In this document: positions 4,389 to 35,130 of the stretch, piece by piece
How positions within the stretch are numbered: position 1 is the stretch's first letter
Layout: each line of letters starts with the position of its first letter
DNA from: Sedimenticola sp.
GTDB taxonomy: Bacteria > Pseudomonadota > Gammaproteobacteria > Chromatiales > Chromatiaceae
Direction: 5' to 3'
Length of the DNA stretch: 41,626 nt
Assembly: GCA_026196475.1 (NCBI GenBank)
Contig: JAPHTA010000144.1
Coordinates: forward strand, 1-41,626
Made by a program: the position numbers and the translations under genes
Notes under the pieces: model-generated
What the model was told of the DNA's origin: nothing
Seen by the model: only the letters and a program-made list of their open reading frames with translations
The model's database searches: none

Positions 4389-5524
4389 TGGCACACTACC
4401 AGCCAAGCGGACTGCCCGAATCCAACCCGACCAAGGCGGAAGGCCTGCTGGCCGACCTGCACCTGGACCTGCCCCTGCTCACTGGCCTGCTGTTGCTGTG
4501 CGGCTTCGGACTGGTGATCCTCTACAGCGCCAGCGGACAGGACATGGCGGTGATGGAACGCCAGGCGATCCGGCTGGCGGTCGCCTTCGTGGTGATGATT
4601 GCGGTTGCCCAGGTACCCCCCACCACCCTGAGACGCTGGGCGCCCTGGCTGTTCGCCGCTGGGATTCTGATGCTGGTGGCGGTACTGGTCGCCGGGCAGG
4701 TGGGCAAGGGTGCCCAGCGCTGGCTCAATCTCGGTCTGTTCCGCTTCCAGCCATCCGAACTGGTAAAGCTGGCAGTGCCCATGATGATCGCCTGGTTCCT
4801 GGCCGAGAAGTCGCTGCCACCGCGTTGGAACCGCCTGTTGATAGCCGGCATCATGATCCTGGTGCCGGTGCTGCTGATCGCCAAACAGCCGGATCTCGGC
4901 ACCTCCCTTCTGGTCGCCAGCGCCGGTATCTTCGTCCTCTTTCTGGCCGGCCTCAGCTGGCGCTTCATCGGCGGCATGCTGATCACCGCGATCCCGGTCG
5001 CCCTGGCGCTCTGGGAATGGGGCATGCGGGACTACCAGCGCAACCGGGTACTCACCTTCCTCAACCCTGAACGGGACCCCCTGGGCACCGGCTACCACAT
5101 CATCCAGTCCAAGATCGCCATCGGCTCCGGCGGGCTCTACGGCAAAGGCTGGCTCAACGGCACCCAGTCCTACCTCGACTTTCTGCCCGAGGGCACCACG
5201 GATTTTATCTTTGCCGTGCTGGCAGAGGAGTTCGGCTTCACCGGCATCCTGATGCTGCTGGCGATCTACCTGTTCATCATCCTGCGTGGCCTCTATATCG
5301 CCAGCCAGGCACAGGACACCTTCAGCCGACTGCTGGGGGGCGCCGTCACCCTGGTCTTTTTCGTCTACCTGTTTGTCAATACCGGCATGGTCAGCGGGAT
5401 ACTGCCGGTGGTCGGGGTACCACTGCCCCTGGTCAGCTACGGTGGCACGTCACTGGTGACCATCATGGCCGGGTTCGGTATCCTGATGTCAATCCATACA
5501 CACCGGAAGCTGCTGCCCACCTGA
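4388..5524 (+). CDS. rodA: rod shape-determining protein RodA (SEDS family)
   Basis: SEDS motifs KGAQRWLNLGLFRFQPSELVKLA and GVPLPLVSYGGTSLVTIM; 1-nt overlap with mrdA. Confidence 0.97.
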   Translation: MAHYQPSGLPESNPTKAEGLLADLHLDLPLLTGLLLLCGFGLVILYSASGQDMAVMERQAIRLAVAFVVMIAVAQVPPTTLRRWAPWLFAAGILMLVAVLVAGQVGKGAQRWLNLGLFRFQPSELVKLAVPMMIAWFLAEKSLPPRWNRLLIAGIMILVPVLLIAKQPDLGTSLLVASAGIFVLFLAGLSWRFIGGMLITAIPVALALWEWGMRDYQRNRVLTFLNPERDPLGTGYHIIQSKIAIGSGGLYGKGWLNGTQSYLDFLPEGTTDFIFAVLAEEFGFTGILMLLAIYLFIILRGLYIASQAQDTFSRLLGGAVTLVFFVYLFVNTGMVSGILPVVGVPLPLVSYGGTSLVTIMAGFGILMSIHTHRKLLPT

Positions 5525-5551
5525 GACGGGCACTTTAACAAGGAACCAGCC

Positions 5552-6556
5552 ATGCCCAAGCGCATTTTGCTCCTCGCTACACTGGCACTCTCAATGCTCG
5601 CCGTGCCGCTTACCGGCACCACCAGCCAGCAGCCCGAGACAGTCGAACTGGTGCAGGAGCTGGTCGAGGAGCAAGGCTACGACGCCGAAACCCTGCGGCG
5701 GCTGCTGGCCACTGCACAACGTAGTCAGCGGGTGATCGACAGCCTGGACCGACCAGCAGAGACGGTACTCACCTGGAAGACCTACCGCCCGATTTTCCTC
5801 AAGCAGAGCCGTATCGAGGCCGGCGTGGCGTACTGGCGCAAGCATGAGACCACCCTGAAACGGGCCGAGGAGGTCTACGGAGTGGCGCCGGAGATGATCG
5901 TCGCCATTATCGGCGTGGAGACCTTTTACGGCCGTCGCCCGGGAAACATTCCGGTCCTGGACGCCCTCTACACCCAGGCCTACCACTACCCCCGGCGCCA
6001 CAAGTTCGGTCGCTCACAGCTGAAGGCGTTTCTGCAGATCCTGATGGAGGAGGAGATGGAGCCGGGGATGGCGGTGGGTTCCTACGCCGGGGCCATGGGC
6101 ACGCCCCAGTTTATCCCCACCAGCTACCTCCACTTCGCGGTGGATTTCGACCAGGATGGCAAGCGGGATATCTGGAACAACGATGTCGATGTCATCGGCA
6201 GCGTGGCCAACTATTTCAAGCGTCACCAGTGGCAGAAAGGTGCGCCGGTCGCCCTGCCGATCGATCCCCTGGCGGCGGACTCCCCGCACTACGTAGAGCC
6301 GGCCCAACGCACCGCCCGGCCGGAGGTCACCCTGGCCGAACTGAAAGCCGAGGGCGTGGCGCTTCCGGACCACCTGCCGGATGAGTACAAGGCAACGGTT
6401 ATCAACCTGCAGGGAGCGGACGGCAACGAGTTCTGGCTCGGGCTGGATAACTTCTACACCATCACCCGCTACAACCACAGCAATCTCTACGCCATGGCCG
6501 CCTACCAGCTGAGCCAGGAGATCCTGCAGCTGAAGACGAGGACCGATCCAAAGTGA
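5552..6556 (+). CDS. mltB: lytic murein transglycosylase B
   Basis: MltB/SLT_2 motifs IVAIIGVETFYGRRPG and GSYAGAMGTPQFIPTSYLHFAVDFDQDGKRDIW. Confidence 0.95.
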   Translation: MPKRILLLATLALSMLAVPLTGTTSQQPETVELVQELVEEQGYDAETLRRLLATAQRSQRVIDSLDRPAETVLTWKTYRPIFLKQSRIEAGVAYWRKHETTLKRAEEVYGVAPEMIVAIIGVETFYGRRPGNIPVLDALYTQAYHYPRRHKFGRSQLKAFLQILMEEEMEPGMAVGSYAGAMGTPQFIPTSYLHFAVDFDQDGKRDIWNNDVDVIGSVANYFKRHQWQKGAPVALPIDPLAADSPHYVEPAQRTARPEVTLAELKAEGVALPDHLPDEYKATVINLQGADGNEFWLGLDNFYTITRYNHSNLYAMAAYQLSQEILQLKTRTDPK

Positions 6557-7389
6557 ATCCCGGCCGACTTCTGTGCGCACTCTGCCTGGCGACACTGGTC
6601 GCCGGATGCTCCGTACGCCCGCCTGCCCCGCCGGGGGAGATCGGGGATGGCGCACCGGCGCGCCGACTCAACCCGGCACAGATCGCCGATGCCGTCCCCC
6701 GTGCCGAGCCAAGAAGCAAACGAGGCAACCCGGCCTCTTACGTAGTCATGGGACAGCGCTACCACACCCTGGCCAGCAGCCGCGACTACGTTGAGCGCGG
6801 CATCGCCTCCTGGTACGGCACCAAGTTCCATGGCCGCACCACCAGTAGCGGCGAGCCCTACGACATGTATGCCATGACCGCCGCCCACAAGAGCCTGCCA
6901 CTGCCCACCTACGTGCAGGTGACCAACCTGCGCAACGGTCGCAGTGCCGTGGTCAAGGTCAACGACCGGGGACCGTTCCACGACAACCGGCTGATCGACC
7001 TCTCCTACGCCGCCGCCACCAAGCTGGGCATCCTGGCCCAGGGTACCGGCCTGGTCGAGGTACGGGCGATCGATCCCGGGGCGCCCCTGCGCCAGGCCAG
7101 CCTGCCGGCCGGCGACACCACAATTACAACAAGGCCGACGCCCTCTGCGGTGGAGCCCGGCCTGTTTATCCAGGTCGGCGCCTTCAGTAACCGCATCAAT
7201 GCCGACCGCCTGCAGCAGAAGCTTGCCCGCTCCCTTGGCGAGCGGATCCGGATCCAACAGGCCGACCACCAGGGACAGGCCATCTTCCGGGTGCAGATCG
7301 GCCCTCTGGCCAGTGTCGACCAGGTAGACAACCTGACCCTCGACCTGCCACGCCTTGGTATCCTGGAGACCCAGGTGGTGATTGACTAG
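6553..7389 (+). CDS. rlpA: septal ring lytic transglycosylase RlpA family lipoprotein
   Basis: Lipobox LVAGC; DPBB motif GIASWYGTKFHGRTTSSGEPYDMYAMTAAHKSLPLPTYV; C-terminal SPOR-like domain; GTG start overlapping mltB stop. Confidence 0.94.
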   Translation: MNPGRLLCALCLATLVAGCSVRPPAPPGEIGDGAPARRLNPAQIADAVPRAEPRSKRGNPASYVVMGQRYHTLASSRDYVERGIASWYGTKFHGRTTSSGEPYDMYAMTAAHKSLPLPTYVQVTNLRNGRSAVVKVNDRGPFHDNRLIDLSYAAATKLGILAQGTGLVEVRAIDPGAPLRQASLPAGDTTITTRPTPSAVEPGLFIQVGAFSNRINADRLQQKLARSLGERIRIQQADHQGQAIFRVQIGPLASVDQVDNLTLDLPRLGILETQVVID

Positions 7390-7556
7390 AAGTCCCGGCA
7401 ACGCCCCACGCTTCAAAACACCCACAGCATGGCGCGTGAAGCCCGCTTCAGTTTTCCAGCTGCATTCAGGTTAGAATGGCCGCACACCGGACCGAACCAC
7501 ACCGGTGCCAGGCTGTCTCAAGCTGCTCAGATACCAGCAACGGAATAAGGAATAAA

Positions 7557-8708
7557 ATGTTCGTACGTGCCATCCGACCACCTGTTCTCCTGCTCCTCGC
7601 TCTTGTCGCCCTGTGCCTGCCGTGGCTTGTCGCGGCAGCCCCGATACCGGCTCCGCCCAGTATCGCCGCCAGCGGCCATCTGCTGATCGATTTCGACAGC
7701 GGCCAGGTGCTCTCCGAATCCAATGCCGAGCAACCCCTTGAACCGGCCAGCCTGACCAAGATCATGACCGCCTACGTGGTGATGCGGGAATTGAAAGCCG
7801 GTAACGTGAAGCTGCAGGACCAGGTGCATGTGAGCAAGAAGGCGTGGCGCACTCCGGGGTCCCGGATGTTCATCGAGGTGGACACCAGAGTGACCCTGGA
7901 GGATCTGCTCAAGGGAATGATCATCCAGTCCGGAAACGATGCCAGCGTGGCCCTGGCGGAACATATCGCCGGTAGCGAGGAGACCTTCGCCAACCTGATG
8001 AACGAGCACGCCAGACGCCTGGGCATGAGCAACACCCACTTCGCCAACAGCACCGGCCTGCCTGCCGAGGGCCACCTGACCACGGCGCGGGATATCGCCC
8101 GGGTGACCCGGGCCACGATCCACGAGTTTCCCGAGCTTTACCGCTGGTATGCGGTACGCGAGTTTACCTACAACGACATCAAGCAGCACAATCGGAACAA
8201 ACTGCTGTGGCGGGACGACGCGGTGGACGGCGTCAAGACCGGACATACCGAGGCCGCCGGTTTCTGCCTGGTAGCATCGGCACAGAAAGAGGGCATGCGC
8301 CTGATCTCGGTGGTGATGGGAACCAGCAGCGAAGACGCCCGTGCCAGGGAGAGCCAGGCACTGCTCAATTACGGATTCCGCTTTTTCGAAACCCACCGCC
8401 TCTACGGCGCCGGGGACAAGCTGGCCGACAGCCGGGTCTGGAAAGGCGAGCGTGAGCAACTGGCGCTGGGCCTGTCCCAGGACCTGCATATCACCATACC
8501 GCGCCGTCAATACAAGAACCTGAAAGCCAACATGACCATCAAGCCCAGGATCATGGCCCCGGTCAGCCAGGGCGAACTGCTGGGCAAGGTGACCATCGAG
8601 CTGGAGGGCGACACGGTGGCCGAGAGTGACCTGGTGGCACTGCAATCGATCGCTGAGGGAGGGATCCTGCAGAATATCAAGGACACCGTGCTGCTGTGGC
8701 TGGAGTAG
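7557..8708 (+). CDS. dacA: D-alanyl-D-alanine carboxypeptidase (PBP5/6 type)
   Basis: SxxK motif EPASLTKIMTAYV, SGN motif (QSGNDASVALAEH), KTG motif DGVKTGHTEAAGFCLVAS; signal peptide; ATG at 7557. Confidence 0.95.
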   Translation: MFVRAIRPPVLLLLALVALCLPWLVAAAPIPAPPSIAASGHLLIDFDSGQVLSESNAEQPLEPASLTKIMTAYVVMRELKAGNVKLQDQVHVSKKAWRTPGSRMFIEVDTRVTLEDLLKGMIIQSGNDASVALAEHIAGSEETFANLMNEHARRLGMSNTHFANSTGLPAEGHLTTARDIARVTRATIHEFPELYRWYAVREFTYNDIKQHNRNKLLWRDDAVDGVKTGHTEAAGFCLVASAQKEGMRLISVVMGTSSEDARARESQALLNYGFRFFETHRLYGAGDKLADSRVWKGEREQLALGLSQDLHITIPRRQYKNLKANMTIKPRIMAPVSQGELLGKVTIELEGDTVAESDLVALQSIAEGGILQNIKDTVLLWLE

Positions 8709-32881: not shown

Positions 32882-32906
32882 AAAAAAAAGCCCGGACGAA
32901 CCGGGC
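32882..32906 (-). terminator. intrinsic terminator for the leftward DsrC-like gene
   Basis: On the minus strand GCCCGG-TTCGT-CCGGGC followed by TTTTTTTT. Confidence 0.8.
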
Positions 32907-33001: not shown

Positions 33002-33355
33002 TCAGGCCATGTAGGCCTTGGCTTCCTCACCGGGATTGGGCAGGCCGGCAATCCTCCAGACCTGGAGGCAGCCACCAAACAGGGTCCTGGCCTCCTCGGC
33101 CGAGAGTTCGCTGCTGCGGCAGATACTGCGTATCGGCGGTATCGCCCGCAGGCGATCGTAATGCCCGCGCACGAAATCGATAACCCGCCAGTGCGCGGCA
33201 CCCAGTGGCGAAACCCCCTCCTGCGCGGCCAGCGTCTCCGCCAGCTGCCGGTTCCAGTCCTCCGGATCAAGCAGGAAGCCATCCTCGTCGAATACCACGC
33301 CACCCCGGGGGATCGACTGTTGATGGAACGTGTAACCGGTCTCTAGTGCACTCAT
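33002..33355 (-). CDS. DsrC/TusE/DsvC-family sulfur relay-like protein lacking C-terminal redox cysteines
   Basis: VFDEDGFLLDPEDWNRQLAETLAAQEGVSPLGAAHWRVIDFVRGHYDRLRAIPPIR...WRIAGLPNPGEEAKAYMA; internal Met at 33355 fits the family start. Confidence 0.88.
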   Translation of the reverse strand: MSALETGYTFHQQSIPRGGVVFDEDGFLLDPEDWNRQLAETLAAQEGVSPLGAAHWRVIDFVRGHYDRLRAIPPIRSICRSSELSAEEARTLFGGCLQVWRIAGLPNPGEEAKAYMA

Positions 33356-33502
33356 CGCTATATTTCCTACAATCTCCAAGAGTGGCCACCCCGAAGGAAT
33401 GCTGCATGTATTTCGAAGGATGGAGTTGCAAAGAACTATAGCGGGGCGTGACAATACATCAAAATAACTTTTCCGTCTATAGAAATAGTTGATTGTTATA
33501 AA

Positions 33503-33537: not shown

Positions 33538-34512
33538 ATGAAACTACAACAGCTGCGCTTTCTTCTGGCGGTCGCCCAGAACGACCTCAACATCACCGCC
33601 GCTGCCGAGCGCCTGTTCACCTCGCAACCCGGGGTCAGCAAGCAGATCCGCCTGCTGGAGGAGGAGCTGGGCGTTACCATCTTCGAGCGCACCGGGCGCC
33701 AGTTGACCGGGGTTACCGACGCTGGCAAGGCAATACTGGAGCGGGCCGAGGCGGTTCTCAGGGAGGTTGACTCGATCCGGGACGTGGCCAGCGAGTTCAG
33801 CGATCCGAGTGCCGGCAGCCTGTCGATCGCCACCACCCATACCCAGGCAAGGTACGTGCTACCCACGGTAATCAAGGCGTTTCGCGCCCGCTACCCCGCC
33901 GTGGACCTGCAGATGCACCAGGGCAACCCGGAACAGATCTCCGAAATGGCCGCCGGCGGAGCGGTCGATTTCGCAATCGCCACCGAGGCCACTGCCGATT
34001 TCGGCAATCTCATCATGATGCCCTGCTACCACTGGAACCGGACCATCATCACTCCATGCGATCACCCTTTGCGAGAGGTCCGGCCCCTGACCCTGGAGGC
34101 GGTCAACGAGCATCCCATCGTCACCTACGTGTTCGGCTTCACCGGCCGATCCCAGCTGGACAAGACCTTTCGCCGCCGCGGACTGGAGCCCAACGTGGTG
34201 TTTACCGCCACCGATGCGGACGTCATCAAGACCTACGTCCGGCTTGGGGTAGGGATCGGGATTCTTGCCCGCATGGCCTACGACCCGGCACTCGATCCCG
34301 ACCTGTGTGCACTCGATGCGACCCGGCTGTTCCCTCCCAGCACCACCCGCCTCGGGTTCCGACCCGGGCTGTTCCTGCGTAGCTACCATTACGATTTCAT
34401 CGAACTGTTTGCCAGCCACCTTACCCGGGAGGTGGTACAGAGCGCCGTCGAGGCCGCCTCTGAGCAGGAGCGCAACGCTCTTTTCAGCGACCTGGAACTG
34501 CTCGAATACTGA
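33538..34512 (+). CDS. cysB: LysR-family transcriptional regulator CysB
   Basis: MKLQQLRFLLAVAQNDLNITAAAERLFTSQPGVSKQIRLLEEELGVTIFERTGRQLTG; CysB-like effector domain (ATTHTQARYVLP, VFGFTGRSQLD). Confidence 0.93.
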   Translation: MKLQQLRFLLAVAQNDLNITAAAERLFTSQPGVSKQIRLLEEELGVTIFERTGRQLTGVTDAGKAILERAEAVLREVDSIRDVASEFSDPSAGSLSIATTHTQARYVLPTVIKAFRARYPAVDLQMHQGNPEQISEMAAGGAVDFAIATEATADFGNLIMMPCYHWNRTIITPCDHPLREVRPLTLEAVNEHPIVTYVFGFTGRSQLDKTFRRRGLEPNVVFTATDADVIKTYVRLGVGIGILARMAYDPALDPDLCALDATRLFPPSTTRLGFRPGLFLRSYHYDFIELFASHLTREVVQSAVEAASEQERNALFSDLELLEY

Positions 34513-34623: not shown

Positions 34624-34737
34624 CAGGCCGTCTCAAGTCGTTCGAACGGCGGCTGAAGCGGGCCTCTCGAACGCCTCTTCCGCGCTTGCCGGAGCCGGCT
34701 CGTTGATTAACTTTTTTCGCTGACGTGTGTGGATAAA

Positions 34738-35130
34738 ATGGCCAAAAAAAACTACTGGCACGGTTACCTGGAGGCCGGGAAAAAGAGCTCCCCGGTGTTG
34801 CGTGACCTGAACCTGGAGACGGGCAGTGACGACACCATCTACCTCTACTCGCTGAACCGGGACAGGATCCTGGAGTACCAGATCGCGATTGTCGAATCGA
34901 AGCTGCGCGAGCTGAGGGAGGACGAGGCCGATCTGGTATCCTCCCTCAACAAGAGCTACACCAAGGCGAAGAAGGATTTCACACCGCGTGGTTCGTTGCC
35001 GTTAAAACAGGTGGAGATCACGCCCCAGGCGAGCGGCGACAAGGAGCCGGACCTGTCCGATCTGGATGATGACGATATCGACGACGACCTGGACACGGAC
35101 CTGGATATCAGCATCGATGATGACGACTGA
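34738..35130 (+). CDS. small protein of unknown function with Asp-rich C-terminal tail
   Basis: MAKKNYWHGYLEAGKKSSPVLRDL...; Asp-rich tail; own terminator-like hairpin; ATG at 34738. Confidence 0.75.
   Translation: MAKKNYWHGYLEAGKKSSPVLRDLNLETGSDDTIYLYSLNRDRILEYQIAIVESKLRELREDEADLVSSLNKSYTKAKKDFTPRGSLPLKQVEITPQASGDKEPDLSDLDDDDIDDDLDTDLDISIDDDD

Follow-up and report, generated by a model that had tools for sequence, protein, structure and literature searches.

Functional context of a DsrC-like gene without arm cysteines

DsrC carries sulfur and partners dissimilatory sulfite reductase. Its arm has two C-terminal cysteines in the motif CxxxGxPxPxxC (PMC8190135). The window analysed here, a 41,626-nucleotide contig from a Sedimenticola sp. 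MAG, encodes a DsrC-like protein that has neither of them, which raises the question of what such a protein could do. The gene, for which the initial annotation had named no strand, is read from the minus strand (Table 1), the plus strand at 33002-33355 not being the DsrC-like gene, and its product ends in FGGCLQVWRIAGLPNPGEEAKAYMA, exactly as written in that annotation. The assignment to the DsrC/TusE family made there was borne out: the protein has the DsrC fold and exceeds the curated cut-offs of both Pfam DsrC (PF04358; 2.8e-19, 70 bits versus 24.9) and TIGR03342 (57.2 bits versus 53.5). The arm core R-x-A-G-L-P-x-P is retained, as in DsrC, but the inner arm cysteine is replaced by Trp100 and the terminal one by the tail PGEEAKAYM, and there is no cysteine beyond residue 96. 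The protein is thus not DsrC proper.

A 7-8 residue insertion has been described as a further requirement for DsrC (PMC4164917). The 7-residue insertion found before LF in DsrC is missing from the window protein, in which PPIRSICRSSELSAEEARTLF spans 21 residues versus 28 in DsrC, and from its relatives, as it is from the separate TusE present in the genus (locus L117). TusE (NF008562), which acts in the tRNA 2-thiouridine relay, has the same fold, but identity with TusE was ruled out by score (37.8 bits versus a cut-off of 191) and by the missing terminal relay cysteine. Because this cysteine is gone, labelling proteins of this kind "sulfur relay protein TusE/DsrC/DsvC" is misleading. The dsrC_1 product of SUP05 phages likewise lacks an arm cysteine and the insertion, but it is phage-borne and only its second C-terminal cysteine is missing (PMC4164917). 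Phage or plasmid cargo was rejected as an origin for the window gene, as no relative was found in the viral contigs searched and the plasmid set gave TusE-like matches only (32-35%).

Table 1. Features of the DsrC-like gene and cysB region of the window
Feature	Position	Strand	Details
DsrC-like gene	33355 to 33002	-	ATG at 33355, TGA at 33004-33002; complete ORF, 117 aa plus stop
cysB, LysR-type regulator of cysteine biosynthesis	33538..34512	+	NCBIfam CysB equivalog, 500 bits (cut-off 436)
Near-invariant intergenic block of ~65 bp between cysB and DsrC-like gene	33426..33493	-	Alignment of 7 Sedimenticola sequences, positions 68-135 of the window row
CysB-box-like motif TCTATAGACGGAAAAGTTATTT, abutting the -35	33462..33483	-	Only exact match in the genome
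Predicted promoter of DsrC-like gene	33435..33462	-	-35 TTGATG, 16-nt spacer, -10 TATAGT; invariant in the genus
Intrinsic-terminator-like hairpin downstream of DsrC-like gene	32890..32906	-	6 GC pairs followed by T8

Conservation of the clade

Relatives were gathered in two sets. The first contained 171 relatives, 80 of which were kept, and the nearest named ones were Sedimenticola species; the second consisted of 40 further loci fetched from HMM matches. Tail conservation was partly selected by the search peptides of the first set, which included parts of the arm, and it recurs in the HMM-drawn set, for which no such peptides were used. The HMM scores are bimodal, with the clade at 89 bits or above and all other DsrC proteins at 70.5 bits or below. 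In a quick tree of 122 rows, made from a short alignment, 108 clade members were split from 14 other DsrC-family proteins (SH-aLRT 99). The loss of the arm cysteines noted in the initial annotation extends across this alignment: the inner arm column is tryptophan (W100) in 108/108 clade rows versus cysteine in 7 of the 14 others, and the tail PG-E-A-x-x-Y-M (P108 in 108/108 rows, G109 in 107/108) replaces the terminal cysteine. The window protein belongs to a conserved clade of the DsrC family whose members lack the arm cysteines.

Two other cysteines to which attention had been drawn, C79 and C96, are specific to this clade, as their columns are never cysteine in the 14 other DsrC-family rows. 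C79 is present in 105 of the 108 clade rows and C96 in 83. Both are found in 42/42 members of the subclade to which the window protein belongs (the CysB subclade, below), and C96 is kept in 41 of the 66 remaining members.

The missing arm cysteines and the fragmented state of the MAG (399 contigs) might suggest that the paralogue is decaying and without function, or that the assembly is wrong here. Conservation already refutes this reading, which we consider extremely improbable. All good orthologues from congeners have the same ending at 67-75% identity, the promoter is conserved, and 171 relatives occur in other genomes. No frameshift of the kind that the initial annotation had asked to be checked was found; genus orthologues and the wider clade share the end point and the tail, and a frameshift or pseudogene is ruled out by an ending conserved in the genus and in more than 100 relatives.

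Two other arrangements were observed within the clade. In a Chromatiaceae MAG (L094:7998-8654), a clade protein continues in frame into a C-terminal domain with a resemblance, judged by eye, to pterin-4a-carbinolamine dehydratase. In another genome, two diverged clade members lie ~3 kb apart (L189:2992-6341), and the genome total is four.

Other DsrC-family proteins in Sedimenticola

Four DsrC-family proteins are encoded in the 399 contigs of the MAG. Its dsrA is cut off at a contig end (C191:5-979), and the missing canonical dsrC is therefore probably due to incompleteness. A near-complete congener (G004) encodes six: DsrC (ending QACRFAGLPKPTGCI), TusE, a form with the inner cysteine only, types ending in KRKGGY and TKGEH, and the window type. 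The search for canonical dsrC and tusE that had been recommended thus found both in the genus. The form with only the inner arm cysteine has the tail PRxALDLSFGSVH (L003, L118). The Cys-less TKGEH type ends in NRLAG..TKGEH (L001, L116, L025, L032) and is extended at the N-terminus in L025 and L032. The Cys-less KRKGGY type ends in GLPETKRKGGY (L115:3232-3576, L002:777-1121); in a congener it is encoded ~6 kb away from canonical dsrC, on the other strand.

Cys-less DsrC-family proteins reportedly received the name RspA, "regulatory sulfur-related protein", in a 2014 review by Venceslau and co-workers. The window protein is likewise a DsrC-family protein without either arm cysteine, and the name may cover its clade; the TKGEH type or the GLPETKRKGGY paralogue may be the protein meant instead. 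RspA proteins have been described as putative regulators. The window protein has helix-turn-helix (HTH) geometry in its predicted structure, but it is acidic with a variable recognition helix, and its clade differs further in keeping two other cysteines and a link to CysB.

Linkage to CysB

Unlike dsrC, the window gene is not part of a dsr operon. It lies between pdxA, of a surA-pdxA pair, and cysB, from which it is divergent, and this order is kept across Sedimenticola and recurs in certain other genera. A CysB-family LysR regulator (called in scanned representatives where the CysB equivalog or a CysB-family model was the best match) occurs in 22 of the 80 loci of the first set, in 20 of them immediately adjacent and divergent, and in 7 of the 40 independently drawn loci. 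All 30 CysB-linked rows, one of them a congener on a truncated contig, fall within a single 42-row subclade (SH-aLRT 91). Other neighbours of the clade genes vary between lineages. Since the majority of genes in the wider clade have no CysB neighbour, control by CysB is not general.

In two related loci (L057 and L058) the order is cysB, divergent cysH, a small protein, a NirA-type sulfite reductase, a TauE-like exporter (recognised by eye) and the DsrC-like gene. In L057 the stretch at 4926-7858 is an assimilatory cluster that encodes the NirA-type sulfite reductase-like protein and the TauE-like exporter and adjoins cysH and cysB. In the window, a small ORF beside cysB (34729-35130) with an acidic, Asp-rich tail is kept in Sedimenticola and had no match in Pfam or NCBIfam.

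The predicted promoter of the DsrC-like gene directly follows TCTATAGACGGAAAAGTTATTT and points towards the gene. The downstream hairpin suggests a monocistronic unit, which is weak evidence alone, since one such hairpin was found versus 1.3 expected by chance. Beyond the genus, five loci (L041, L044, L046, L047 and L048) have related forms of the motif. In L057 and L058, where 4.3 kb separate the DsrC-like gene from cysB, the motif still sits directly in front of the DsrC-like gene. In the cysH loci of three Sedimenticola species, the best motif matches lie just upstream of cysH; they scored above 200/200 dinucleotide shuffles in two species and above 197/200 in the third, with a motif that was learned from the same loci and whose scores are inflated by AT-richness. 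A genome-wide census allowing two mismatches gave a count no higher than the control, and use was therefore restricted to the exact site and those upstream of cysH. Loci with Cbl-like regulators have a different common block, ATTATTTYACNTGAT. The window gene thus has both an adjacent CysB-family gene and a promoter motif that also stands before known cys genes. From these features we infer that CysB would bind the motif sites, and control of the gene by CysB in the window's subclade is strongly suggested by sequence.

Co-occurrence with dsrA

In the gammaproteobacterial sample the clade, like DsrC, was always found with dsrA: all 39 clade-bearing genomes have dsrA versus 125 of 370 overall (hypergeometric P about 4e-21, a value too small because of relatedness, with an equal pattern at the family level). 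These carriers span 23 family codes. Of 18 further carrier genomes, traced from loci of a second collection, 15 have dsrA, including alpha- and betaproteobacteria (Hyphomicrobiaceae, Sulfuricella); the other three are 2.0-2.2 Mb assemblies that are possibly incomplete. The clade is bound to dsrA genomes. Neither this link nor that to cysB had been mentioned in the initial annotation. As 86 dsrA genomes of the 370 lack it, the protein is accessory.

Predicted structure and possible mechanisms

The AF2 model (70 sequences) has a mean pLDDT of 85.6 and helices (DSSP) at 36-45, 53-69, 75-82, 86-93, 96-102 and 110-116. In the PDB it matches DsrC proteins, most closely 2v4j_C, DsrC bound to DsrAB (TM 0.81 by target length, 1.4 A). 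In the model, C79 lies within the first helix of an HTH-like pair, C96 starts the helix leading into the arm, and the end of the arm is predicted to be helical.

This geometry raises the possibility of a small transcription factor: the DsrC fold includes an HTH, compact in this protein (helices 75-82 and 86-93), and together with CysB the protein would regulate sulfur genes, as the name RspA implies. The segment C79-R-x-x-x-G/E-L-x-R-x-x-V-x-x-L fits classical HTH spacing, both helices are assigned by DSSP, and the gene is divergently paired with cysB. Winged-HTH fold matches are weak (LexA and TetR, E above 1, as for all HTH proteins among the fold matches), and scattered weak Pfam HTH matches occur in a few members (HTH_IclR 0.007, LexA 0.009), but the window protein itself matches no HTH family. 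It is also acidic (net charge -5, with 0 for the HTH), and variability is among the highest at positions 87, 90 and 91, which are exposed on the recognition helix, whereas the arm is almost invariant. We regard this role as unlikely. Because the exposed HTH positions vary, the protein is acidic, and the arm and tail form the most conserved surface, we prefer a mechanism involving a protein partner to DNA binding.

If C79 and C96 had taken over as the active thiols, the protein could still be a sulfur or redox carrier, which would either pass sulfane sulfur from the Dsr relay to assimilation or run a C79-C96 disulfide cycle. This reading accords with the near-invariance of C79 in the clade, the presence of both cysteines throughout the CysB subclade, their absence from other DsrC-family rows, and the position of the gene at the end of the assimilatory cysH/sulfite reductase/TauE cluster in L057 and L058. 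However, outside the CysB subclade 25 of 66 clade members have lost C96, which means that the clade does not generally work through a dithiol, and C79 sits inside the first HTH helix, where its side chain is probably buried. A carrier seems to us a little less probable still than a transcription factor.

Our leading, though tentative, proposal is that the protein is a DsrC paralogue with a regulatory action on the Dsr pathway, restricted to organisms that have a (reverse) Dsr sulfur-oxidation pathway and, in the window's subclade, a target of CysB. When cysteine or reduced sulfur is short, CysB would switch the gene on. The product keeps the DsrC body and arm core, and its arm would be unable to accept sulfur; it could dock on a partner of DsrC (DsrEFH, DsrAB or DsrMKJOP) or on a regulator. 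Docking would damp or redirect flow through the Dsr pathway, leaving sulfur for biosynthesis, and C79 and C96 may tune the effect through their redox or persulfide state.

The invariance of C79 and C96 in the subclade was counted against a pure decoy and suggests chemistry. Of the initial description of the protein as non-catalytic and probably regulatory, the second part is favoured by the CysB linkage; the first is weakened, as these strictly kept cysteines might serve as sulfur carriers or join in a disulfide. A more specific and more doubtful version of our proposal is that the CysB-induced paralogue senses or captures sulfane sulfur with its relocated C79 and C96, and throttles the reverse Dsr pathway or diverts its sulfur, protecting the cysteine supply as a switch between dissimilatory and assimilatory metabolism.

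In sulfur oxidisers, energy and cell sulfur come from the same sulfane pool, and we are aware of no established connection between the regulators of sulfur oxidation and of assimilation. One concrete candidate for such a link, open to test, is a DsrC paralogue that is found only with the Dsr pathway and is placed under an assimilation regulator; it probably lets sulfur-oxidising bacteria coordinate sulfur oxidation with sulfur assimilation.
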